In this document: in pieces, positions 32,796-53,100 of the stretch
Layout: each line of letters opens with the position of its first letter
Numbering within the stretch: position 1 is the stretch's first letter
From: Phlyctochytrium arcticum
Lineage: Eukaryota > Chytridiomycota > Chytridiomycetes > Chytridiales > Chytridiaceae
DNA: 64,000 bases
NCBI GenBank assembly: GCA_025602905.1
Contig: JAHLKI010000002.1
Location: 248,001-312,000, forward strand
Reading direction: 5' to 3'
Translations under genes and position numbers: made by a program
The notes under the pieces: generated by a model
Told to the model about the DNA's origin: nothing
Seen by the model: the letters and a program-made list of their open reading frames with translations, nothing else
Databases searched by the model: none

Positions 32796-35700
32796 CTACT
32801 CTGGAGGGGCAGGAGCGTCTTGGCCCACTATTTCTGCAATGATTTGAGTAACTTTTTCGAACGCGCGCGTCTTTTTGATTTTGATTGCAACCGCCTCTTT
32901 GGGGAATTGCAGAACAAAGCGGTGGTCATTCGGTTCTGAGTGGATCTGGACCTCCGCCTTGAGTTTGTATGTTGTCCCCTGTCAAACAAATCAGCCAAAG
33001 TTCTTCAGATGTGGGTATAAACGTACCAAGCCGCTGTCGACGGGCTGCAAGCTCAACAAGGCCATCGCAGGATTTATTACCAAGTGTCTCGTGAGCCAGT
33101 GTTCTCCCATCAGCCCATCACTTAAAACTGAGCACTCTACGAGTTCGTCAAGTGGAGTATCTGTCGATCGGTCAATAGTGCTTGATTTCAGTACCATCGG
33201 AGCCGTATGATTCAACTGATTTTTCGTTTTCTGTGTGCCCGAGGAAATCCCAGTGTGAGAGCTCACCACGCTGGACGTGAGCCATGCTGTTGATCTCAAT
33301 TTTGACGAACGAAAGATGAAGAAGGTTGTGAGGCAGAACCAATTGAGGGTCAAAATTCCGAAAGCCTTGAGGTAAAACGCGGTTTCGGGGCTGATATCTT
33401 GCAACAATACTACAGGAAGCACAACTATGGCCACAGCTAAGGTCACGTAGCATATCATCGCAACGGGTCTATGATGGCCGTTCAGCAAAACCTCCACAGC
33501 TCTTACAATACAACTTACTTGCTTTCCGCATATCCACCGTATGCGCGTCGAGTAGAATAGGCAAGAGCAAAAGCCATTCCCATCAAAACAAGCTTGTAGC
33601 CAAAGGTAACTCCTGTCATAATCAACGAAACGTTTGAGTCTGAGCTACATGTCCAGTATCGTGTGTTGCCGATGTCAACTAAGGTTGGTTGTAAAGGGCT
33701 CAAAGCAGTCCAAATTGCGTCGAGTACCTAATATATGTCAGTACCACATAACTAAATGCCAAGATCGCTTTCTTACCAATTCTCCAAATAAAAGTGTCAT
33801 CGGGATCGGGATGACCATTGTATCCGTCATCACAAACTTGCCGCGGTTCCGGAATATCCTGTGAATTCGATAGTTCTTGCCAATAATATTCCTTCATATC
33901 TCTTAGCTCCTGGCCAAAATATCTTGAATCTAAAAACATACCCGAATACCAAAGAGAAAGCGGCACCTCCCATCCAGACCTGAGCAGAACAGATTTTCTC
34001 CGAAGGGCGCCATGTGTACAAAAATATCAATCCACAAGCAATTATCGTTCCAAAAATCATCTGGGCGGAAAAGATCGGCGCCAATTTGCGGACCTCTCTA
34101 TGAGCACGATAATAGAAGAGGTTCACTATCAAAAATGTGGCAAAACAGGCGGTGAAAGCGGAAAGCGCCAGGACGATCGCTGGACCAACGGCCCGTGCAT
34201 CGATGCTACGTTGTTCTGTAGGTATATAATCCACATCAGACGCGATTCCCGAAGCAGTCAACTTTAGTTGGAACAATTGCAAGTCGTTGCCCTCTATGTA
34301 GCTATTGTCTTCTTTGAGCACCGAGAAAGATATTGCAAAGCTTGAATTATTTGCGGCATCCCGCCGGCGTAAGGAATTGGTCGATGCGTTCACGAAAGAC
34401 CGAAAAATCACACGTGAGGGTGCTATTTGGAGAGTGGCCGCAATACGGGCCATGATCTCATCACGCTTGCCATAAGCGTTGCTTCTGTCATCGTCCGCCA
34501 GTTTCATAAGGAGGGCATCTCTCTTATTGCCTTGCATCGAGCAGTCGACCCCTTCAAAAAAGGGATTACAGTGACAGAAGTTGGATCGGCATACACCGTT
34601 TTTGGTACACCCTAAAGAGCAAACTACCAAAGCCACATTATAAAGACCAAGTTCGAGACGTGTAAAGGGAATGGCGTACCTGGTATGACGCAGCTCTTGT
34701 ATCGGCTGCTCTGGCCGAAAGATTCTTCATGGGTTTCAGGACAACTCTTGATTGTCAAAGGGATGCCAACTTGGAAGATCTCTGGATCAAAATGAGATGT
34801 TGTCCCTTCAGTTTTAATCACTACCATATGCTCTCCGGGATTTGCAGTAACCACTATGCGACGAAAGTCTATGAAAGACTGCGCTCTGTACTGGGTCACA
34901 GACCCAAACACGTCACCGTTGGGAAGTGATATCGTGAGAAGAAGTGAGTCAGCTAGTGAGGGAACGAAGTACTGTCCGTACACTACGAGGTTTCGAATTC
35001 ATAAGATGTTTCTTAATTGACCTGATGGTCGGCTTACCGTCAACAGGGGCGACTGACAAGTGTTCCAAAACCTCTCCAGAGAATAATGCACTTATTGTAC
35101 CATTGGCAAGCAGCTTATCAAGACTACTGGCTATGCTGGGTCCATAATCCGACGCGCCATTTGAATCAAAGGTAACGTGGGAGGGAAATGCGATGAACGG
35201 TGGGCGAATGCTATCCGGGCTGCCCTCGACATATATAGCACCTCCCCTTGCTGCATAGTTGTGGTTAAACGTTACACCATCTCCAAGTACCAGAGAGCTG
35301 TTAGAGTTAGTGGTGACGTATATTGCACCCCCGCCTAATTCAGCAATATTTCCATTAAATCTGTCAATCGAAATCAGCATAGTAAAATGTTGGCCGTGAT
35401 CAGAACTTACACGGTGTTCGCTATGCTGAGTATTGTGTCGTCAGATGCGGGTGCAAAATATATGGCACCACCAACACCCCGTCCGAATGGCGTTTTGTTC
35501 CGGAGGAAATACGAGTCCGTAATACTGGATGGCCCGCTGAGGTGCAAAGGATTCGTCATGTCCTCCATGGTGCAATTAGTCATGGTCAGCGGCACTGCGC
35601 TTCCAGTCTTGAAGCCACTGCCAAGGCGGCGGAAAGTGGAACCTTGTAGAACGAATCCTTCCCCCGAAGTCAATGCAAAAACCGTGGTGGAATGCTCGGC

Positions 35701-37954
35701 TTTAATATCTATAGTAAAATGGTTGGTGGACTGCGCGGTGCTGGTGATCGTGCCATTTCCAAAACGGACCTTCGAAGAGACAATCAACAACTTCCACATA
35801 CACATCAGGGATGCCCGGTGAGTGCCACAACATATCAGTTTCACTGGAAATGCTTCTGATAGTGGTGTTTCGGAATAATACTCGCCCGTCCGTGATTGTC
35901 AAAAGCCCGTAGAATATTCCATGGGGGCCCCCGCAGTCTGTTCCGCTATGCTTTAGGAAAAAACAGCGTAATCAGACGATATCCATAGTGCACCTTCTAT
36001 AAGCGAATCCTCAATGATAATTGTGCCCATCCCATAGCACTCCAATGCAAAATTCTCCATTTGTTGTTCTGTTACCGCAACGATCAGTTGAGGTGCCTAA
36101 GCGATGCACAGGTCTCAGCTTACTTCTAATATGTACCCGCCGCAAAGTCAATTGTCCATCCCAGTAACCTCCGTCATTGAGCATGAAGGGTTGGTTATTA
36201 TTCCAGTTTCCCGATACCTCCCAATCTTCATATGTCAGATCTACAGTATCTCCGGAGTTCGAACAAATGTTGTCCTCTGTAAGTTGTCAGTATCTAGTTT
36301 ATGGGAAGGAATAAAACAACTTACTCATTATGACGTGACTCAAAACAATGGGATTAAGATATCCTGAGGTTCCCCAAGCATCGGTACAGGCCTCCGCCTC
36401 ATTCCGTAGGAACGTGATACCAGACATTTCGAAGGTATCATCGCTGTTGTAGGTCTGAATTTGAAGTAAACTGCCCGGTAGATTTATTTTTTTCCCGTTC
36501 TCTGCGTAATCATATCAATCGGTGAACTCAAATTAGCCATAGTTTTAGACCACACCTTCGAAAACCAGATCAGCAAACTTTGCGATGGTCGGCAATCCCC
36601 CTTCCTATGTTGGCAGTACTTGCATTAGTGTTTGCCGCAGAGCAACTGGGAAACATTCTAACCTGGGGGGTGCCAATTCGCAGCAAGTAAAGTGCTACAG
36701 CAGTGGGCCCCTTCATATTCCCTTGGAAAAAGATTTAGTTATTTTTCCAATCATCTTCAATACTGAAAGCAAGCGCGTGCTGCATACCTTTAAAATAGCC
36801 TCTGTCAATGTTGAATATGCCATTACGGAGGAAAATCATTCCCACGCCGCCAGCTTCGCAGGCTAATCGGATTTGTTATGTATGATGTGTAAATGTTTGT
36901 GCGCAGTATTTTCTAACCTTCGAATGCGATGTCCTCAATGTCCGTTTGGACGGAGTCAAAAATGCCAATGAAACCCCCCGCAATCTTTCCATTGTCCGGG
37001 TTGTCTCCCCCGTGTGAGCAGTTTGAAAACTTCGTGTCACGAATAGTGATCTTATTGGCACCTTGCCCAGCTATCACAGTGTAACTGGTTCCAGCCGTGC
37101 TCTGCTTGCCTCGCTGAGCGCAGCTCGTTACGTTGACCGTTTGTATCATCATGTCTGCTCCACTTTCTGCGGCCATAAACATTGACATATCTATCAAGGT
37201 AGGGTCAGGGTAATGATTAAGCAGGTAAACCAACACTTCGGGCTTGCCTTGAAAAGTGCTGCCCTGGACGGTCATTTTGGCCAATGACCCAACGTTTAGG
37301 ACTGCCAATGTGCATTGCCCTTCAGCCTTTACAGGAACAGATCCTGTTTTTGACGGTGTTTGAATAAGTGATCGTACTTAAGACAGTAATGCTGCAGACG
37401 AACCTGATGCTACAACGTCCGACAGAGTGACACTGCCATTCTTGTTCGAAATGCTGAACTCGGCCATGTTTGGAACAATTATGTCAAGGGTAGACATGGC
37501 AAGACTGCCTGCTTCTATGCCGATGGTACCGACCATGGCCGGGGAACCAAGTGATACAGACATGCTGGCGGCAATAAGAGTTGCCCGCCCGCTCGCGGAT
37601 GCCATAACTACTGTAGATGAAGAGAAATTCCATTTGCCATTCGCGCGAATGACATGCGTTTGAGGGGAAAGCTGGATGACATAACTCCCCAGATTGTCTT
37701 GAATGTAATCCCAAGCTGGCTCAAAATGTTGAGCAATTGCCCCATATTAAAGACAAACACTCACCGGAATTTATGGACGCAAACGTCCCAGAACCAGGAT
37801 TTTCGGGTCCTCCGGTGTTGACAATCAGAGACACTACATCGTGATGAGAAACTAAACGATTTTGCTCCTGCTTCCACCCACCTGTGACCGCAAGACTGTT
37901 TGCGACGAAATTGCACAGGACCATTCCAACCAAGATGGTCCAATAGTTGTACAT
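32796..37954 (-). CDS. Chimeric class C 7TM receptor with beta-helix ectodomain (receptor A; one-base frame break)
   Basis: Seventeen exons: 37954-37765, 37697-37404, 37343-36918, 36862-36788, 36721-36663, 36604-36556, 36501-36325, 36276-36124, 36068-35770, 35699-35411, 35360-35038, 34982-34680, 34611-33942, 33891-33777, 33727-33519, 33468-33027 and 32978-32796; about 1418 residues. A signal peptide (WTILVGMVLCNFVANSLA) leads a ~850-residue ectodomain of short strands rich in Asn, Ser, Gly and Thr (TNCTMEDMTN, GGAIYFAP, GGGAIYV, RGGAIYVEG), typical of right-handed beta-helices. An EGF-like cluster follows (GCTKNGVCRSNFCHCNPF), then a short module (MARIAATLQIAPSRVIFRSF), then seven helices from ~1020, with GKNYRIHRIFRN after helix 3 as in GABA-B receptors. 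A PH-like tail ends it. The frame breaks at 35958-35963: six A are present, seven would restore it. Ligand and signalling are unknown. Confidence 0.85.
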
Positions 37955-38130
37955 TTCTGATGGTTAAATGAATTGAATGCCTTATCCAGTGGAAACAAAG
38001 GGAAACCAAGGAAATCGGGTGAGGGATGCGCATGGAACCCATCCATCTTATAGTCAGTCTTTGGAGGTCCAAGGATGCAAACTTATTTTTAGTCTAACTT
38101 AGTTTAAATGGATGCGGCGAAACTTTTTCA

Positions 38131-38272
38131 AAACAAGATCCGGGATGTGGCCAGCCCTTTATTGGCCGACGACAAGAATAGCAGCATTTTAGAACAAATT
38201 GCCACAAAACGCGGCCGCCTTCTATCCTGGACGACCTGTTTTTCAGGGTCATGAAACTATCGCTCTTATTTA
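38131..38272 (+). repeat. Direct repeat copy 1 (receptor control region)
   Basis: 142 bases that align end to end with 38361-38503 with roughly four in five bases identical by eye. Shared blocks include GAACAA.TTGCCACAAAA, CTGGACGACC.GTTTTTC and AGGGTCA. Contains the palindrome GCGGCCGC, lost in copy 2. Confidence 0.85.
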
Positions 38273-38360
38273 GAGCTCTGGTTTAACATGGTATTTCTCA
38301 GAGGGGGCAGTCGGAAAAGTAAAAGACACGAAATATAATCAAAAGAAAAACAACACAAAA

Positions 38361-38503
38361 AAACAAGGTCGGGGATATGGCCAACCCTTCATTGCACAAC
38401 GACACGAATAGTAGCGTTTAAGAACAAGTTGCCACAAAATGGGGTCGCCTTCCATTCTGGACGACCGGTTTTTCAGGGTCAGACAAACTATCGTTCTTAT
38501 TTA
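38361..38503 (+). repeat. Direct repeat copy 2 (receptor control region)
   Basis: Second copy of the unit at 38131, same orientation, offset 230 bases. It ends 112 bases before the ATG of the plus-strand receptor. Differences are spread evenly, so the duplication is not very recent. It has no coding potential. Confidence 0.85.
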
Positions 38504-38615
38504 CAATGATAAATAGTCAAAAACAAATGGTTGTTTCGGTTGATTAGCTATCAAATAAATGCTTATATAGACTTGACATGATTTCCCTCGTTGTTACTCC
38601 CCACTCGCCAAAAAG

Positions 38616-41600
38616 ATGTGGTTTCGCTATCCACTCTTCTGTCACCTATTGGTACAAATCTTCTGCTTCTGGATAGTAAAATCTCAAAATGTTACGATTT
38701 ACTGTGACATTTCCACTACCACATCAAACAACAATGGCTCGCTGGAAGCTCCCTACCAAACTTTTGATGATGCATTTATTGCGGCAGCAGATCTGGCTAA
38801 CAGCATCGGAATCTTACCGGATTCGGTCATCCAGATTAAATTGGCTCCGGGGCTATACAACCTCGATGAAAGTATGGGGGGATTTTATGCTTGGGATGGA
38901 GGAAGCTCACAAACTGCGTCGCTACGAATTTCTGGACAAAACAGCACAATTTCTTTTACCGAAGATTTTTTGACTGTAGGACGTGGGTGCGTAGGGGTCT
39001 TTTCGTCCGTTTTTGAATTACCCATTATTGATAATACCTATCGCAAGGCCTGCATTTGAAATTGGATTCTCAGGAAGTCTTATTTTTGAAAGAATTACTT
39101 TCAAATCTGCGCCAGGGCAGACCGAATGGTTTTTTGCCACCACCACGGCTGATGCGAAGCTTGCATTCGATGACATTTTCGTGGAGGGTACCGATGTTGC
39201 GGCGTACTCGCAAACATATTTTGTCCTATGTAAGTTTTCCTCTATTTTCGTTCCGCGATTGTATGATATAGACGACTGGCAACTAGCAAATGATGGGGGG
39301 AGCATCGCTCTGAACAACGCGGAGTTTGGACACGGAGCCTGTCTGAAAACCCACACGGTATCCTTCGCGGCCATTACCTCAATCACAAATTTGCGTATTG
39401 TTGGTACGTACAATTATGAGATACAATCAGGTGCTAGCTTGCTAATTTCTTTCTAGACAGGGAGTATGCTTCACTTTTCAACGAAGTAACGGCGGGTCAG
39501 CTTGTCTTTAAAAACTGGCACCTTAGGGGACTTTGGCTAGATAGTTACTCAAATTTCGTGGTTTTTGTAAGTCATACGGCCGACCTCCTCTACTTGTTGC
39601 TCACAATCTTCAGGCAACCGGAGAGAATGCCAGAGCTGACGTCGCAAACGGATTACTCGAAAAGCATAGCTCACTTCCATCCGATAATCTTGTGGAGGAA
39701 AATACGGCATTCGATGTGAGTAGCCCCCCGCAGTCCTACCCATCTAGAAACTTCAATGAATTTGTTTGCCTTTCATCAATCAGTCCGAGCGCTTGGCCGA
39801 GATTTATGTTACGAATGTAACTTTCAGAGATACTTCCGTATGTCTGGTGACCGCGTTATACGCCGGGAACATCTATGCAAAGGACATCACGGCAATTGGA
39901 GTCGAAAAATTTATCGATCTGCTTTTTGCTTACAATGCACGAATCGAGCTTGTTGGGGCTCACATCGAAAGTATTATGGTGCCATTTCACTGACCCACCG
40001 TTAATGTGAAATCTGACGATTGCCATCAGACTGTACAGGATCATTGAATAACCAAGGCCCCACTGCGCAAGTGGTAATGGAAAATGTCCACTTTATCAAC
40101 TTGAGTAAGAAAGGCCAAACAGCGGCCTGGGAAAACAAAATGACCCCTCTCTTTAGGAAATCTGGAAAGCCCTTTTATGTACTTCAAAGGACAGCTGGGA
40201 ACATTTATATTCACATTCAAGGTGCGGCTGCCTGGATAGAGTTCTCATTCTCAGCTAATCGTGGTCGCCACAGAATGTGACGCTCGAGGCCACGGTCCCA
40301 ATCACAAATCCACTCTATATGATTTACTTGAGAGGCGGCAGAGCGCAAATTGATGGACTGAGATTGATAGGACTTTATACCTGTGTCGACTCCTGTGTTC
40401 ATGCTTCAAAAATGTTGGATTTCGGTATCAAAAACTCCCTGTTTAGTGGTCAGTGACCTTCCATTTCCTGATCTTTTGGCAAAAGGGGCATTAAACATTA
40501 TTTCAGGTCTTACACTGCTGGGTTCACAGACATTGACTATTGAAGCACCGCCATCGCACGTTCTGATTGACAATTGGACCGTGGAATCAATCAAGAATGG
40601 GGGAGCTCTTGTGGTCCGAGCGTATAATACTGGAGCCAACATATCTATCGCAAATTCAAGATTCGTCAAGAACAAGAATAACCCATTTCTGGTTGGTGTC
40701 AACAGCATGGCTGCAGCCTCTGCCACGTTGAATATCCGAAATACTACTTTTGCAGGTTAGTATCCTGCCCGAACAGCGCCCGTCAATCGAAAACTGATGA
40801 GCAAGTGTTTAGGAAACTACTACTCTCGCGTCATTTCCTTGTGCGATGGTCAGATTAGGTTCGACAACGCAACCTTCTGGAACAATACCAGCGAGGAAAA
40901 CGGCCAAGTCGCTTGCGATATGAGTTCCGGCAAAAATAGTTTGACGATTCTAAGCAGCTTATTTGATGGCAACAAAGGAGTGAATGGAGCTAGCATGTAC
41001 ATCGCCGGCCTGGTCAACGCAAGTCAGGTTTATTTGCGTGGGAATGTCTTCAAGAACAATGTGGCACTCAGTCGAAGCGGAGGATGGTATTCCACTGTGC
41101 CAAGTCCGCTTCCTATTGACTTGGAAAGTATCTACATTAACAATACAGCACGGTCAGGAGCGGATTTTTCAACCGCAGCCGCCAAATTGCGGCTCGTAGC
41201 CAATCTTTCCGATATATCTGGGTATTCCGGATTTGCCCTTCCCACCTTTTCCGCTCAGGCGGTTGACATCTTTGGACAATGGTTCTACACAACTATAGCT
41301 GACTACGCAATTCTATTAGACGTAAATGTTACGCGGGCAAATAACCGAAGTGAGGCAGCTGCTCTTCCTGGTCAAACTACGAGTATGATAGTTTTCGGCA
41401 CAGCAGAGTTTTCCAATGTTCGAATCTTGGCGCCCCCAGGAGTGTATATGGTGACAGTAAGTCACCCCGCCGATACCGCTGCTATTGAGCTTGAACCTGT
41501 CCATATTCCTGTGACTGTCTTGCCCTGCGCATACCCGAAGCGCGAACGGTCTGTCAGTGGCTACGCTGCAAGTGAATGTCATGTACCGGTGTGCCCACGT

Positions 41601-43434
41601 GGTTGTCTCTCCACTGGGGTTTGCGTAGATGATGGCAACTGTGCATGCACCAGCACCATGTATGAGGGATGGGACTGCTCCATTAAAGCGGCGGTGAACG
41701 ATTCAGCAATTGTAACATTCGCTGTCACCGAACAGCTGACATTTTCTACATCTACACGGGATCGAATCTTCGATACGCTACAGGCCACTTTTGGGGAGAC
41801 CTACAATATCATTTTTCGCCAGTTCACGCAATCAAGATCTGATCTAATGGAGTTCAAGTACTCTCTCACAAACAAACGGGGTGAATACCTGACCGCAACC
41901 GAACTGTCGTCGATGTCCACAAAAGCAGCCACATCTTTGATGAGCAGCATCCCTTCCTCGGGTGAAGTAGTCGCCCGGTTGCAGACTGGAGATCTGAGTA
42001 ATACCAATCTTCAACAATCTGTAATCAGCTTGGTGATTGCAAGTATCGGCATAACGGCCGTTCTGCTTCATTCAATGTGGTTGTACATCAAGAGAAACAC
42101 AGGAATTCTCAAAAGTACCGTCATGCCGCTCAATTACATACTCAACATGGGGATAGCCGGCATGTTTGCGTTCCCAATTACCGACCTGCTTCTGCCAACG
42201 CGAGAAAGTTGCACAGCACAGGTAGCCTTTATGCCTTTTTCGATTGGTCTAGCCGTTCCTGCTCTCGCCGCCAAAGTCATCTATTATCGAAGCAAATATA
42301 ACAACAGAATTGGTGTACTGAAGGGACCGACCACTGCTGAAAGCAACTTCAGTACTCTAATTGCAGGGGGACTATTCACTGTGTATTTGGTGAGCGCGAC
42401 TACATAAGGGATCTGAAATTAATAGTTTTGAACTAATCGAGCGAAAAGGTACTCGCAATCCTGTGGTTAAGCGTTGATGCCCCCACCACGAAATTGATTT
42501 ACAAATCATCTTCTGACACGCGTTACTACACATGTGGGAGTAGCAATGGCGATGATTCTTCTCAGCTAGGATTTGTGGTTGCTTTTTCCGGGATAACGGC
42601 CGCTCAGCTGATACCCATGATTTATATCTCCTTGAAAATGCAATCTGCAACCATACCGGCTCGTGAGAATCTCCTTCTACTGGCAAATTCTGTCAATCTG
42701 TTTGTTCTCGGTGGCGCGTTGGTTGGTCTGCTCTTGTCAGACTTCCTATCTGGCATTATTCAGTTCATCGTTCGAGCCATTATCGTGCATCTGGCTGCGT
42801 GGATCCTGGCGCTATCCTTTCTTGCATCCAAAGTGGTCGCTGTGGCCAGATCTGCCAAGGGTGAAGAGGAGAATGAAATGCAAGATGCAATTCGCGATGT
42901 ATGTCTTGTAGCTTCTCTCGAGGATCAGACCATACATTAACTCGATTTGCCTCTAGTTTGCCATGAGTCGACCCATGACCACAGGAGTTGGTCTAACCAA
43001 AGGAACAGCTTTGTTGGGAAGCACTCCCCTGCCCGGCAAGCCCTTGAGTAGAAAGAGGTTCAAGTCTTTGGTTCCTTGGCGTACGCTGTATGTCCAATTT
43101 TGGGATCATCGCCTGAGTATGTGGCCAGATGGCGCAAACAAGGTAACACATCTTCTCCGACTTGAATCCAAACCAGTTATTTAATCACAACTTGCAGGGC
43201 TCCGAGTACTTACTCGCGAAGACAACGGCGGAACTTGAAATGGCTGATGGTAAAGGCTCAGTCTCAGACACCGTCAAAGTTAAAGAGCTGAGTGGCCCGG
43301 AGTGTCTGCTACAATTTGAGACTCATGACGCGGCAAAAAAATGGATTGAAGACTTTGAAGTCGCGAAAGTGAAGGGGGCTGAGATGACAGCAAACGTTCC
43401 TAGCGTGCCAACAGACCCGACCAATCTAGAATAA
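38616..43434 (+). CDS. Chimeric class C 7TM receptor with beta-helix ectodomain (receptor B)
   Basis: Fourteen exons: 38616-38986, 39048-39229, 39272-39403, 39457-39566, 39614-39715, 39784-39970, 40030-40104, 40157-40221, 40274-40448, 40507-40755, 40813-42389, 42449-42898, 42957-43142 and 43198-43434; 1365 residues, frame intact. A signal peptide (LLVQIFCFWIVKSQ) precedes a ~760-residue ectodomain whose opening (YCDIST...GSLEAPYQTFDDAF) is the usual start of a pectin-lyase-like beta-helix. An EGF-like cluster (CPRGCLSTGVCVDDGNCAC, ~800-837) follows, then a module with RIFDTLQATFGETYNIIFRQF. Seven helices run from ~952 to ~1225, with KRNTGILKSTVMPLNYIL after helix 1 as in class C receptors. 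The tail resembles a PH domain (WRTLYVQFWDHRLSMW ... AAKKWIEDFE). The domain order equals that of receptor A, with low sequence identity. Ligand unknown; a cell-surface sensor or adhesion receptor is the likeliest role. Confidence 0.9.
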
Positions 43435-46603: not shown

Positions 46604-48784
46604 TCATAGTTTCAAGCAAGCAGGATCAAAATCATCACCAGCAGAGCGACTCACGACTGTAGCTAACAATTTCCGCTTTCGCTCAATGCTCAAATCCGTC
46701 AAATCGTACAAACTGCACAGATTAAATAGAAGCTCCTCACACACACCAGCCTTGCGGGGCATGTCAATTGCAATACTGTCCAGAAAGCTTACAGCTTGCC
46801 CCACATTGCCCGTGTACAATTGACAGAGTGCCAAATTGTTGACCCACACCGCTGAAGATGGATTGAGCCCCAACAACTGAGTTAACGTTATAACAGCTCG
46901 CTCCCAGTCTCCTTCAGACATGCGCAGAAACGCCTCATTTCCCAGCAGCAAATCAGGTCGCTTAGTTAGAGATGGATCACGACCTATTAGATCCGCAGTT
47001 CGAGTAAAAACACTCCTGGCAGCACCCATATTTCCCAGTTGAAGATACAAGCGACCGAGTCCTGAAAGCAGGTCGGGATCGTCCGGCCGAGTGACGCTCA
47101 AAGCCCGTAATATTGCCGACGCAGGCCGGTAGTCTTTAAGATCTATCAGTAGGTTGGCAATCTGAATTTGAATCTGGGCTTCACGCGCCATCCAGCGGTG
47201 TTTCGGCTCCATTTCGGCGACTCCGTCCCCGGAGAAATTACAGGTTCGAATCATCTGACGCGTCATGTGTAGGAGCCGATAAAAGCGTGAAATACTTTCT
47301 TGTTGCGCACCCTTGAATCCCGGCAGACGCGCCCAAAACATACGGATTTCAAAACTCAACATGGATCCTTTTATGTCCGGGAAACACTCTGGATATTTTT
47401 CGTAACGTAGATTTGGGGGATCCAAATCAACGCAACCGACCTTGGTTAGCTCACCGCTGGCAAATTCAAAGAGCTTGAGTTTCGCTAAAGCCAGCAACCG
47501 CACGAACCACCAACGCATGATCTCCTTGACTTCAGCGGGATGCATGGCAAGCAACCGTTGTCGAGCCAGAATAGCAACACTACGCCAGCTGTTCGCGTTA
47601 ACCAAAGCTAACAAAGGGTCTGCTTCGTTTGAAACGTCATCCACGCGAACAATCTTGCGGGCTGGGCGAGCACCTGTGTCCAAAGGAAAAGCTTTTGGGA
47701 ATATTTCGCCGATTGGGTCACGCGGGGGTATATCATAAAATACAGTGGGATCAGTCCAGCGTCGCGTGGGCAATGCCTGAAATTTCTCCTCCACTATGGC
47801 GGGAGATGGCTGATGTCGTTGAGATAGTGTCTGCCCGCGACTGAGGGGTATATCAAAGTTTGTAGGGAATGATGCAAATCCACCAGTGTGATGCGTCGGA
47901 GTTACAAAGCCTGCTTTGGGCGGTGGCACTGGCAAACCCAGACTGTCAGCGGTGTAAGCAGTGGGCGCCTGGCCAGAGATTGTTGCCGTTTCGAGTGAAA
48001 TGATGGACCTATTTGATGGGGAAGTAACAGATGGAGAAGAATCTATGGGGGAAATGAGAGATGCTTGCAGGGGTTGTTGTCGATTGGTTTCAGATGGAAC
48101 TTGTTGCGGTTGTTGAAGAGAAGGAAAAAAGTCGATGCCGCTTGCTGTTCCGGGAGGGGCGGATGCTGGTGTTAAGCTGAAGGACAGTGGCTGGGTGTTC
48201 GATACATGCGGCGCCTGCCCCTGTGCGGGAAGTTGAGCGAAGAAATCCATATCTGGGGGGAAATTCGAAGCAGTCTGCTGAAAAAATGGAATGGGTCCCG
48301 TGTCGACTGTCGGTTTGGCGGCTTCAAGTGGTTGGATGTCAATGAGGGATCCAGGAGTGGAAAACTGACCCATGAACGGTGTGCCTGCTGATGGACCAGC
48401 CGCACTAGAAGGAACCTCATCAAATCCGAAGGACTCTGACCTGGTCACCTGTGGGGCCATAGGTGGTGGCAACTTGGACGTCACTGACGATGTGTCCTGC
48501 AGCAAATTTGATTGTAATGGGTCATCCAGCGGTGGATCAATGGATATCGTCAAGCTTTCGCTGGGCTCTAATGCTACATCTTCGGAGACTACTGCTCCGG
48601 TCGGAAGCGTCTCTGAACTGGTGTTGACTGGCTTTTCCCTCAGCGACAACCCTTCCTCCCCTAAATCGGCAATATCGAGCTGTTTATGCTCGTTCAAAGG
48701 AATCTCATTATCCACCGGCTGAGGTTGTGATGTTGAGTCTGATTGTTGTTGTATGTTTGAAGGCCATTCCTCGGCAGCAGACAT
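46604..48784 (-). CDS. TRAPPC12: TRAPPC12 homolog (TPR protein)
   Basis: Subunit of TRAPP III, a GEF/tethering complex for ER-Golgi traffic and autophagy in animals and some fungi. Single exon, 726 residues, ATG at 48784. The first ~330 residues are Ser/Pro/Gln-rich and disordered. From ~370 the conserved part begins (ANSWRSVAILARQRL, then MRWWFVRLLALAKLKLF). TPR-like helices follow between ~540 and 700: ILRALSVTRPDDPDLLSGLGRLYLQLGNM and ITLTQLLGLNPSSAVWVNNLALCQLYTGN are split over 47100 and 46850. The end (VCEELLFNLCSLYDLTDL) matches the family's last helix pair. It lies 376 bases head-to-head with GOT1, another secretory gene. Confidence 0.9.
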   Translation of the reverse strand: MSAAEEWPSNIQQQSDSTSQPQPVDNEIPLNEHKQLDIADLGEEGLSLREKPVNTSSETLPTGAVVSEDVALEPSESLTISIDPPLDDPLQSNLLQDTSSVTSKLPPPMAPQVTRSESFGFDEVPSSAAGPSAGTPFMGQFSTPGSLIDIQPLEAAKPTVDTGPIPFFQQTASNFPPDMDFFAQLPAQGQAPHVSNTQPLSFSLTPASAPPGTASGIDFFPSLQQPQQVPSETNRQQPLQASLISPIDSSPSVTSPSNRSIISLETATISGQAPTAYTADSLGLPVPPPKAGFVTPTHHTGGFASFPTNFDIPLSRGQTLSQRHQPSPAIVEEKFQALPTRRWTDPTVFYDIPPRDPIGEIFPKAFPLDTGARPARKIVRVDDVSNEADPLLALVNANSWRSVAILARQRLLAMHPAEVKEIMRWWFVRLLALAKLKLFEFASGELTKVGCVDLDPPNLRYEKYPECFPDIKGSMLSFEIRMFWARLPGFKGAQQESISRFYRLLHMTRQMIRTCNFSGDGVAEMEPKHRWMAREAQIQIQIANLLIDLKDYRPASAILRALSVTRPDDPDLLSGLGRLYLQLGNMGAARSVFTRTADLIGRDPSLTKRPDLLLGNEAFLRMSEGDWERAVITLTQLLGLNPSSAVWVNNLALCQLYTGNVGQAVSFLDSIAIDMPRKAGVCEELLFNLCSLYDLTDLSIERKRKLLATVVSRSAGDDFDPACLKL

Positions 48785-50174: not shown

Positions 50175-53100
50175 ATGTCGATTGTTTTGGACGCCAGTGT
50201 CTTTCACAGGAGAATCGGGGCTTTGATCAAGGAATGGAAGGTCAGAACATAACATTTCCACTTCATATATGTTACATTGCCTGAACCTTGAAACAGGACT
50301 CTCGAACGACTCCTGAGTGGGCCTCTACCGATGTCCTAGCTCTTCTCGTGGGTGCTGCTGAGGAAGATGCACCATATCAGAAGGGTAGCGCCATTCAGAC
50401 CTGGCTGCTCGGGTACGAATTTACGGAAACGCTGGTGTTGGTAACTGAGGACAAAGTTGTGTTCTACACGAGCGAGAAGAAGTCAAAGTACATCGAGCCT
50501 TTGATTAAGAAGGGTACTGGAGTTACAATCGAGATTGTCAAAAGAAGCAAGGATGAGGCGGCAAATAAGGCTGCTGTTGGTGAACTCCTGCAGGCCATTT
50601 CATCGAGTTTCTCTGGAAAGAAGATTGGGACTTTCGCAAAGGACAAGTATCAAGGCAAGCTTGTTACAGAGTGGAAGGACGCCATCAAATCATCCGGAAA
50701 ACTCGAAGAAGTGGACATCTCTGGCGGTGTAGCGAATGTCCTGGCAGTAAAAGATGATGAAGAGACTCGCACGATTCGGCAAGCTTCCAAACTCAGTTGC
50801 TTGGTTATGAAAAAGTACTTTGTTACGGAGATGATGGAGATCATTGATGAGGGAAAGAAGGTCAAACACGAGCAGATAACTCAGAACATGGAAGATCTAC
50901 TCGTCAACGAGGAGCAACGCAAGAAATACAAATTCCCTGCTGATGTTCAATACGATCTCGCAGACTGGTGCTACCCCCCTATTGTGCAGAGTGGTGGAAA
51001 GTACGATCTAAAAGTAAGCGCACAAAGCAACACGGACCCCCTTCATGAAGGAACCATTCTTTGCACTATGGGAATCCGTTACAAGTCATATTGCTCAAAT
51101 GTTGCTCGAACTTATCTGATGAATCCCGAGAAAAATAAAGAGAAGAATTACAACTTTTTAGTCGAACTTCAAGAACACGTTTTGCAGGGAATCAAGGAGG
51201 GCGTGACTTGCGCCGAAGTATACAATTCCGCGACCTCCTATATCGAGAAAAAACGACCTGATTTGAAGAGTAACTTTTTGAAGAACTGCGGATGGAGTAT
51301 AGGCATTGAGTTCCGTGAGTCTGCATACACTCTATCTCCTAAGCACACCGCCAAATTGCGATCTGGCATGATTTTGAACCTTGTTTTGGGATTTCAAAAT
51401 TTGGAAAATCAGGGCTCCAAAGATCCTAAGAATAAGACTTACGCCTTGTTGATTTCTGATACGATCATTGTGACGAATGCCCACCCGACCGTGCTCACGG
51501 AAGTCAAAAAAGGTCTTGAGGAGGTGTCTTTTGAGTTCCAGGATGAGGATGAGGGAAAGCCTGTCAAGCCAGAGAAGACTACCAATGGGGAGAAGAAAAC
51601 CCCTGTGGCTGCTGGGCTTCCAGAAAGGAAGGGTAAACGTCTTCGTGACGATCGTGACAAGCAGGAGAATGAAGCTCGACGTCAAGATCATCAGCGTCTT
51701 CTGCACTCAAAGTTGCAGGAAGAAGGTGTACGGCGTTTCTCGGAAGCAAATGCTGGAGCGGCCGGTGAAGAGAAGGAGGTCTTCAAAAAGTTTGCCAGTT
51801 ACAAGTCAGAAGCACAACTTCCAAAGCAGGTCCAGGATCTTAAGATTGTTGTCGATACCCGAAACGAATCCATCATCCTTCCAATCTATGGTCAACCCGT
51901 TCCATTTCATGTCTCTACGCTGAAGAATGTCAGCAAATCCGATGAACAAGACTATGTCTACCTACGCTTCAATTTTGTAACACCTGGTCAAGTTGGAAAG
52001 AAGGACAACACTACCCCATTCGAGGATCCAAATGCGACCTTTATTCGCGCCCTCAACTTTCGAAGTAGCGACATTGGACGATTTGCAGAGATTTTCCGAC
52101 AGATCAATGATTTGAAGAAGGATACGGCTAAACGTGAAGCGGAACGCAAGGAGAAGGCTGGTTTGGTGGAGCAAGACCGATTGGTGGAGATTCGGGGCCG
52201 TCGACCGCTTCGGTTGCCCGAAGTGTATGTACGCCCTCAAATGGACAAGCGCTTCCCTGGTGATCTTGAAATTCACACCAACGGTATCCGCTACCAATCG
52301 CAACTGAAGAGTGGCCAGAGCATTGATATTCTCTTCTCCAACATCAAGCACTTGATCTTTCAAGCTTGCGACCACGAATTGGTGGTCATAATACATATTC
52401 ACCTCAGAGACCCCATCATGATCGGAAAGCGAAAGACCAAAGATGTTCAAATTTACCGGGATGTGACCGATGCTGGGTTCGACGAAACGGGAGGACGCAA
52501 CCGTCGACGAAACAATTATGGTGATGAAGATGAGTTGGCCATGGAACAAGAGGAACGCCGTCGACGAGCCGCTCTGAACAAAGAATTCAAAAACTTTGCC
52601 GACAAAATTCAGGACGCCAGTCGGATCGACGTTGACGAGACCTACCGCGACTTGGGCTTCCATGGTGTCTTCAGTAGACAGCTGGTCTTGTTGCAACCTA
52701 CAAATGAATGTTTGGTCCATTTGATTGACATGCCAAACTTGGTCATCACTCTGGCAGAGGTTGAATTTGTGCATTTGGAACGTGTGCAATTCGGTCTTAA
52801 GAATTTCGATATGGTGTTTGTGTACAAGGACTATTCACGCCCCGTGACGCATATCACGACAGTTCCGGTGAAGCAATTGGAGAATGTCAAGGAATGGCTG
52901 GAGTATGTTTTCTACCGTTATTGGCCATTCAATGCGCATTCTAATTTACTTGATGCTATAGTTCCTGCGATATCCCTTACAGTGAAGGTCCAGCCAATTT
53001 GAGTTGGCCACAGATTATGAAGACTGTCAATTCGGATCCTATCGGTTTCTTCGAGGCTGGTGGTTGGATCATTCTCCAGCCTGAGTCTGATGTATGTTGC

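Follow-up and report, generated by a model that had tools for sequence, protein, structure and literature searches.

Recurrent head-to-head pairs of class C receptor genes with predicted beta-helix ectodomains in the chytrid Phlyctochytrium arcticum

A 64,000-nucleotide stretch of contig JAHLKI010000002.1 of the chytrid Phlyctochytrium arcticum (positions 248,001 to 312,000; hereafter the window) carries two divergently transcribed genes, here called A and B, each predicted to encode a class C receptor with seven transmembrane helices (7TM). As an earlier note on this DNA had described, they form a head-to-head pair at 32796-43434, in which A is read from the minus strand and B from the plus strand, with a stop codon ending at each limit. 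Both products are predicted, partly by eye, to have the same order of parts: signal peptide, beta-helix, conserved linker, epidermal growth factor (EGF)-like module, juxtamembrane domain, 7TM domain and cytoplasmic tail. In a two-sequence comparison A and B are paralogous (23% identity over 538 columns, E 3e-24). The genome of this member of the Chytridiomycota (31.48 Mb, 91 contigs) was surveyed as a whole, and labels such as C2, C6, C10 and C21 denote its contigs, the window lying on C2.

The model of A is supported by a protein of Thoreauomyces (31.5% identity, 736 columns), and no deposited counterpart of A is among the four deposited proteins listed. B is identical over the first 1071 of 1075 residues to a deposited hypothetical protein of the same species (P0010, DFS34DRAFT_603523); a first splice model of B had 1365 residues and became 1360 when the deposited acceptor at 39287 was adopted. 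The deposited model ends after transmembrane helix 4 (TM4), without TM5-TM7, because it reads through an intron (Table 1), and it scores 29.7 bits with the Pfam model 7tm_3, under the curated cut-off of 33.5 bits. The B half of the pair is therefore easy to miss, and a survey restricted to proteins with seven predicted helices, as a 2025 one was (PMC12842992), would be expected to miss it. All 30 introns of A and B are GT-AG and 47-68 nt long (17/17 and 48-66 nt in A), the GT-AG rule having been imposed while the models were built. An automatic gene finder mis-spliced A and B when tried on them, so the models of the six other paired genes described below serve for conserved regions only; five of these six were trimmed or re-started by eye, and the C10 A-type model is incomplete in its EGF part.

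Scanning the whole genome with 7tm_3 yielded 35 exon matches, or 22 loci once merged, and a search with B added one further gene on C21, located upstream of the A-type gene there and on the opposite strand, making 23 class C loci. Eight of the 23 belong to the A/B family, and all eight lie in four head-to-head pairs, on C2 (the window), C10, C6 and C21, each composed of one A-type and one B-type gene. Among the 15 other class C loci divergent pairing was not found, no two being so arranged within 45 kb. A partner too divergent for 7tm_3 would escape the whole-genome search, as the C21 B-type did; searches with B sequences gave four B-type loci only, and the genome search with the C21 B-type 7TM gave these four, its other matches, at E 8e-4 or worse, all being A-type or ordinary class C loci. 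Three of the other loci are class C genes in tandem on one strand at C12:403199-411624 (L013/L014), with near-identical 7TM domains. The recurrence of the pair four times, together with the split in coupling residues set out next, is the strongest point of the analysis and is invisible from one window. The paired two-gene arrangement was not found in print in the open-licence literature, subscription papers and preprints lying outside that scope.

In the order C2, C10, C6 and C21, the A-types score 119.2, 127, 132 and 160.5 bits with 7tm_3 and the B-types 45.5, 63, 37.2 and 46 bits. The first value of each series, for A and B themselves, bears out the earlier note's proposal that both encode class C 7TM domains, and the helix motifs that it quoted are present, GKNYRIHRIFRN in A and KRNTGILKSTVMPLNYIL in B. 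Its description of both as GABA-B-like stands for A and fails for B: a profile of seven A-type 7TMs finds GABAB2 as its best match among PDB sequences (110 bits, 1.3e-30), followed by mGlu7 (72) and GABAB1 (72), whereas a profile of the four B-type 7TMs finds mGlu1 (53 bits, 3e-13, covering positions 2-196 of the 258 in the profile), with GABAB chains absent at E up to 1.

The two types differ where class C receptors touch their G protein. The TM3 motif KN[YW]R[ILV]xxIF, which aligns with K574-R577-V578-I581-F582 of GABAB2, occurs in 7/7 A-types (four here and three in other species) and in 0/4 B-types. In human GABAB2 (GB2), K574 and D688 form an ionic lock, the substitutions R577A and I581W eliminate signalling, whereas V578A, I581A and F582A reduce it (PMC8222003); the equivalent residues R543, I547 and F548 matter in Drosophila GB2 (PMC12499500). 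All four B-types keep the TM3 lysine, and they carry (C2, C10, C6, C21) Y, Y, Q and Q in place of the arginine, K, K, Y and R in place of the isoleucine, and Y, Q, W and R in place of the phenylalanine. Lysine 3.50 and the TM6 acid 6.35 (E) are found in 7/7 A-types and 4/4 B-types, and the cysteine pair linking TM3 with extracellular loop 2 in 11/11 A- and B-type proteins. The loss is thus selective: by sequence, the B-types appear to have kept the fold and the ionic lock and to have lost the residues that face the G protein, so that the family seems to have two non-equivalent members of which only the A-type carries coupling residues. In looser form the TM3 motif is also present in Capsaspora and at eight of the 15 unpaired class C loci (three on C12, C6:63.6k, C6:856k, C20, C44 and C1:2194k); an exon-wise pattern search found no clear TM3 motif in the other seven, four of which have the TM6 motif. 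Four G-alpha loci in the genome score over the family cut-off.

The best explanation of these observations is that A and B constitute a receptor cassette that is expressed from one divergent locus and works as a unit, most likely as a heterodimer, and we regard this as somewhat probable. B could instead be a non-signalling adhesion, decoy or trafficking (chaperone-like) partner that brings A to the surface without sharing in ligand recognition. This would agree with its missing coupling residues and with a full-length ectodomain bearing EGF and juxtamembrane domains, but between C2 and C10 the helix and linker are about as conserved in B as in A (35.6 versus 34.4% identity), which suggests a ligand-facing role for both and makes such a partner improbable.

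The history of the four pairs bears on whether the two genes belong together. In a full-length tree of A- and B-types only, a single branch, supported at 100/100, separates the A-types from the B-types, and each side shows the order ((C2,C10),C6),C21 with supports of at least 93. The same order is given by an ectodomain-only tree (72/71 for the A-type C6 and 90/91 for the B-type C6) and by a 7TM-only tree with four outgroup rows (74/71 for B-type C2+C10), in which the B-types form a clade at 100/100. Joining the B-type C6 to C2 alone or to C10 alone was rejected (p-AU 0.0033 and 0.0028). Moreover, A-type and B-type identities correlate across the six locus comparisons (r 0.88 for helix plus linker and 0.83 for the 7TM domain, the points being non-independent). 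The flanks, compared over about 10.5 kb to either side of the pair in the window and over 1.4-3 kb at C10, C6 and C21, gave no tblastx match below 1e-3 between loci, against 16-46 matches between the pair bodies. Because the A and B trees branch alike and the flanks are unrelated, it was the two-gene cassette itself that was duplicated, and the paired members have since diverged to 22-36% identity in helix and linker between loci. The C21 A-type groups with the proteins of Thoreauomyces, Powellomyces and Geranomyces (100/100 in the full-length tree and 94/96 in that of the 7TM domain). Should the root fall between A and B, as the outgroups weakly suggest, the A/B division and the first cassette duplication would predate the split of these chytrids, and a B-type gene would be expected beside the A-types of those three genera unless it was lost. 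In the right flank of the C6 pair (L012, 178-181 kb) lies an open frame resembling, by eye, a retrotransposon polymerase, which might have served in the copying of segments.

One may argue that the pairs are only a relic of an inverted duplication followed by segment copying, with A and B serving as separate receptors (homodimers) for different ligands and B coupling in its own way. Class C receptors are often homodimers, the 7TM domains of A- and B-types are only 20-25% identical within a pair and have their best matches in different animal subfamilies, and B keeps a well-formed class C core. However, separate receptors need not stay paired, and yet the four B-types found all adjoin an A-type despite the divergence between loci and the unrelated flanks; in addition, the same three coupling residues are gone in four of four B-types. 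Separate receptors are thus rather unlikely, although they deserve more weight than a non-signalling partner.

The ectodomains of A and B comprise about 650-710 residues of short strands rich in Asn, Ser and Gly, which together make up 23-26% of the whole ectodomain. In A they score above the Pfam cut-offs with both Beta_helix (27.3 bits, cut-off 25.9) and Chlam_PMP (31.8 bits, cut-off 20.6), and in B the Beta_helix match of 23.2 bits lies below. The cut-off of a beta-helix model is passed in three of the eight paired genes, namely A, the C6 A-type (Beta_helix 28.5, Chlam_PMP 30.6 bits) and the C21 B-type (Chlam_PMP 27.9 bits). The C6 B-type remains below with Beta_helix at 21.4 bits, and it alone among the eight matched in a genome search with Beta_helix over single exons; the C10 A-, C10 B- and C21 A-types reach only 15-16 bits with Chlam_PMP, and the beta-helix is assigned to them by homology. 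A beta-helix ectodomain is accordingly predicted for A, B and their paralogues from a Pfam match or from homology. A profile of the A-type helix had, by sequence, one credible match among PDB chains (7w5z_U2, 2.4e-11), and the hydropathy of the helix was periodic at lag 5 only (z 4.3), with no coil period. AlphaFold models of the deposited B protein (4 sequences) and of the large B exon (5 sequences) had mean pLDDT scores of 46.6 and 47.8, too poor to establish a beta-helix, and no beta-helix protein is named among the Foldseek matches listed for these two low-confidence models (the best 50 in the first list). Elsewhere in the genome, C56:9806-10572 (G000) has two Beta_helix matches above cut-off, with no 7tm_3 match listed on that contig.

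The EGF-like cluster reported in the earlier note is clear to the eye: the cysteine pattern recurs in 10 of 11 aligned A- and B-type proteins, the exception being the C10 A-type, whose model is incomplete there. The Pfam EGF matches are all sub-threshold in A, B and the six paralogues (EGF_Tenascin in B 22.1 bits, cut-off 25). For the juxtamembrane part of B, the low-pLDDT model of the large exon gives hints only, in the form of weak ferredoxin-like Foldseek matches (rank 6, 5c2u_A, E 0.0067) and, at rank 7 and elsewhere in the same list, mGlu/GABAB receptors. Profiles of the juxtamembrane domain and of the tail had no credible relative among PDB sequences, and the ideas of a PH-like tail and a SEA-like juxtamembrane domain were dropped, as neither had a Pfam family match in A, B or the six paralogues.

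The beta-helix appears to stand where a class C receptor would normally carry a Venus flytrap, as the note had proposed. ANF_receptor matched none of the eight paired genes, A and B included, whereas seven of the 15 unpaired class C loci have a match beside them (L017, L020, L021, L022, L019, L016 and L018), the matches being assigned to 7TM loci by position and strand, without gene models. These matches serve as an internal positive control for the lack of a recognisable flytrap in A and B. SBP_bac_8 matched beside one further class C locus (L025) and in 0/8 paired genes, and a genome search with Peripla_BP_4 gave no match. Since the flytrap (ANF) of the canonical subfamilies was not found, class C membership is claimed for the 7TM domain only. 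Neither a GAIN/GPS module nor a 7tm_2 core, as in adhesion G-protein-coupled receptors (GPCRs), appears among the matches of A, B and the six paralogues at E up to 1. Pectin-lyase-like folds are common in carbohydrate-degrading enzymes, and the beta-helix might accordingly be an active enzyme of this kind tethered to a 7TM anchor. That such enzymes often have this fold is argued in PMC5168858 too. However, no glycoside hydrolase or polysaccharide lyase family of Pfam was among the matches of A, B and the six paralogues (E up to 1) or of four deposited proteins (E up to 0.1), and a tethered enzyme is hardly credible.

The domain architecture itself is not new, because Seppala et al. (2016, PMC5168858) described it in three anaerobic gut fungi. 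Of the class C receptors of these fungi, about 30% have a pectin lyase fold, to which parallel beta-helix repeats are sometimes added and EGF in few cases; none has an ANF domain, and carbohydrate binding was proposed for them. The likeness to A and B thus covers a beta-helix-type ectodomain, EGF, a class C 7TM and the lack of ANF. In contrast, those receptors come from Neocallimastigomycota transcriptomes, and the available portion of that paper mentions no paired genes, two types or loss of coupling residues. Class C receptors were reported in chytrids in 2012 (PMC3251606), and among fungi they show enrichment in Chytridiomycota and Blastocladiomycota, whereas Ascomycota and Basidiomycota have almost none (PMC12842992), in agreement with the note's expectation of an early-diverging fungus. 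The words pectin and Venus are absent from the main text of a 2025 choanoflagellate GPCR study (PMC12716839) and of a 2026 review (PMC13308352), and Phlyctochytrium arcticum appears in PMC8887899 only in the reference list.

If A and B do form the heterodimer favoured above, the two subunits would assemble, and ligand bound on one or both beta-helices would re-orient the stalks formed by the EGF and juxtamembrane parts, a movement that would let TM3 and intracellular loop 2 (ICL2) of A engage G-alpha. A, whose 7TM domain is closest to GABAB2 and has the TM3/ICL2 residues in contact with the G protein, would be the coupling subunit. Lacking those residues, B would be unable to activate a G protein by itself; it would bind ligand, switch A, or both, as GABAB1 does for GABAB2. 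The most likely ligand would be a polysaccharide, of a surface or of a cell wall, that the zoospore or germling encounters. The best-known obligate class C heterodimers are those of animals. It is possible, and we put it forward tentatively, that obligate heterodimeric class C receptors arose in chytrids separately from GABAB and are encoded there as self-contained divergent two-gene cassettes, in which a beta-helix replaces the flytrap, one subunit couples and the other does not, and the unit has multiplied into a small family that reads polysaccharides.

Several points weigh against joint function. The evidence consists of sequence and gene arrangement in one genome, and a single search with B among close relatives (7993 candidates) yielded no B-type protein outside P. 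arcticum. Support for the A-types as a group is only 75/74 in the 7TM-only tree with outgroups, and the B-types sit on long branches, with a warning from the tree program for those on C6 and C21, which leaves it uncertain how deep the A/B split lies. Within a pair, the A- and B-type ectodomains (helix plus linker) are 24-26% identical. The four intergenic regions have in common two 7-mers (one and its complement) and no 8-mer, which is about chance, and co-regulation is therefore without direct support. Moreover, a pair copied as one segment would keep its order with no need for joint function, and the lost B motif could mean another mode of coupling rather than none.

Among known systems, the GABAB receptor (GB1/GB2) offers the closest comparison for the heterodimer: it is of class C, its GB2 is nearest to the A-type 7TM profile, and it is built of two non-equivalent subunits of which one couples (PMC12499500). 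Its subunits have Venus flytraps and no beta-helix or EGF, and its heterodimer is proven, whereas that of A and B is proposed here. Because both chytrid subunits lack the flytrap, they would work like a GABAB receptor rather than be one. The A-type relatives in Powellomyces hirtus (P0005), Thoreauomyces humboldtii (P0001) and Geranomyces variabilis (P0006) share the domain order of A and B, with Chlam_PMP above cut-off in P0001 and P0005 and below in P0006, but they are single deposited proteins with no described function. mGlyR/GPR158-GPR179 are likewise of class C, lack a Venus flytrap and carry an EGF-like domain ahead of the 7TM (PMC12716839, PMC8611064), although their ligand domain is a Cache domain and not a beta-helix. 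The nearest functional parallel within the phylum is the rhodopsin-guanylyl cyclase/NeoR of Rhizoclosmatium, which works only as a heterodimer of unequal subunits and belongs, as A and B may, to the predicted sensors of zoospores of Chytridiomycota (PMC7655827), but its protein family is unrelated and it responds to light rather than to a surface ligand.

If the heterodimer is real, the four co-duplicated pairs of coupling and non-coupling members would represent a second origin of the obligate class C heterodimer design. A rigid beta-helix in place of a closing flytrap would then test whether asymmetric activation needs a flytrap at all. The residues named above also provide predictions at residue level and a candidate system for surface recognition by chytrid zoospores.

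Table 1. Features of the A/B pair in the window, and the four head-to-head pairs of the genome
Feature	Position	Strand	Description
C2 pair	the window, 32796-43434	A minus, B plus	start codons 661 bp apart
C10 pair	B-type from 808019, A-type from 808511	B-type -, A-type +	predicted start codons 491 bp apart
C6 pair	B-type from 172134, A-type from 172564	B-type -, A-type +	predicted start codons 429 bp apart
C21 pair	B-type from 329910, A-type from 330512	B-type -, A-type +	predicted start codons 601 bp apart
Gene A (A-type receptor)	32796..37954	-	18 exons, 1412 aa; hand-built splice model, homologous to P0001
Gene A exons 1-9	37954-37765, 37715-37404, 37343-36918, 36862-36788, 36721-36663, 36604-36556, 36501-36325, 36276-36124, 36068-35994	-	
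Gene A exons 10-18	35937-35770, 35708-35411, 35360-35038, 34982-34680, 34623-33942, 33891-33777, 33727-33519, 33468-33027, 32978-32796	-	
A putative signal peptide, residues 1-22	37889..37954	-	read by eye
A predicted beta-helix ectodomain including start, residues 55-762	35057..37792	-	Pfam Beta_helix match 522-682; limits by eye
A EGF-like module, residues 865-900	34532..34695	-	Cys spacing by eye and sub-threshold Pfam EGF matches
A juxtamembrane domain, residues 901-1012	34196..34531	-	alignable in 8 paralogues, two models incomplete there
A class C 7TM domain, residues 1013-1258	33309..34195	-	7tm_3 119.2 bits
A TM3/ICL2 motif GKNYRIHRIF	33852..33881	-	counterpart of the Gi-contacting stretch of GABAB2
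A cytoplasmic tail	32799..33308	-	weakly conserved domain of ~90 residues at end
Gene B (B-type receptor)	38616..43434	+	14 exons, 1360 aa; matches deposited P0010 over residues 1-1071
Gene B exons 1-7	38616-38986, 39048-39229, 39287-39403, 39457-39566, 39614-39715, 39784-39970, 40030-40104	+	
Gene B exons 8-14	40157-40221, 40274-40448, 40507-40755, 40813-42389, 42449-42898, 42957-43142, 43198-43434	+	
B putative signal peptide, residues 1-23	38616..38684	+	read by eye
B predicted beta-helix ectodomain, residues 41-690	38736..41249	+	Beta_helix match below cut-off; strand ladder in low-confidence model
B EGF-like module, residues 799-838	41574..41693	+	EGF_Tenascin below cut-off
B juxtamembrane domain, residues 839-944	41694..42011	+	strand-helix-strand-strand-helix-strand in both low-confidence models
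B divergent class C 7TM domain, residues 945-1202	42012..42844	+	7tm_3 45.5 bits
B TM3/ICL2 stretch AKVIYYRSKY	42270..42299	+	K kept; R/I/F coupling residues gone
B intron read through in deposited model	42390..42448	+	
B cytoplasmic tail	42845..43431	+	
A/B shared intergenic region	37955..38615	.	661 bp between start codons; contains 122-nt direct repeat (84%), 38130-38251 / 38360-38481

Two neighbouring genes were recognised in the window. A gene for a TPR-repeat protein lies on the minus strand past the end of B (46607-48781), and a single long open frame at 50285-52999 encodes Spt16, a subunit of FACT.

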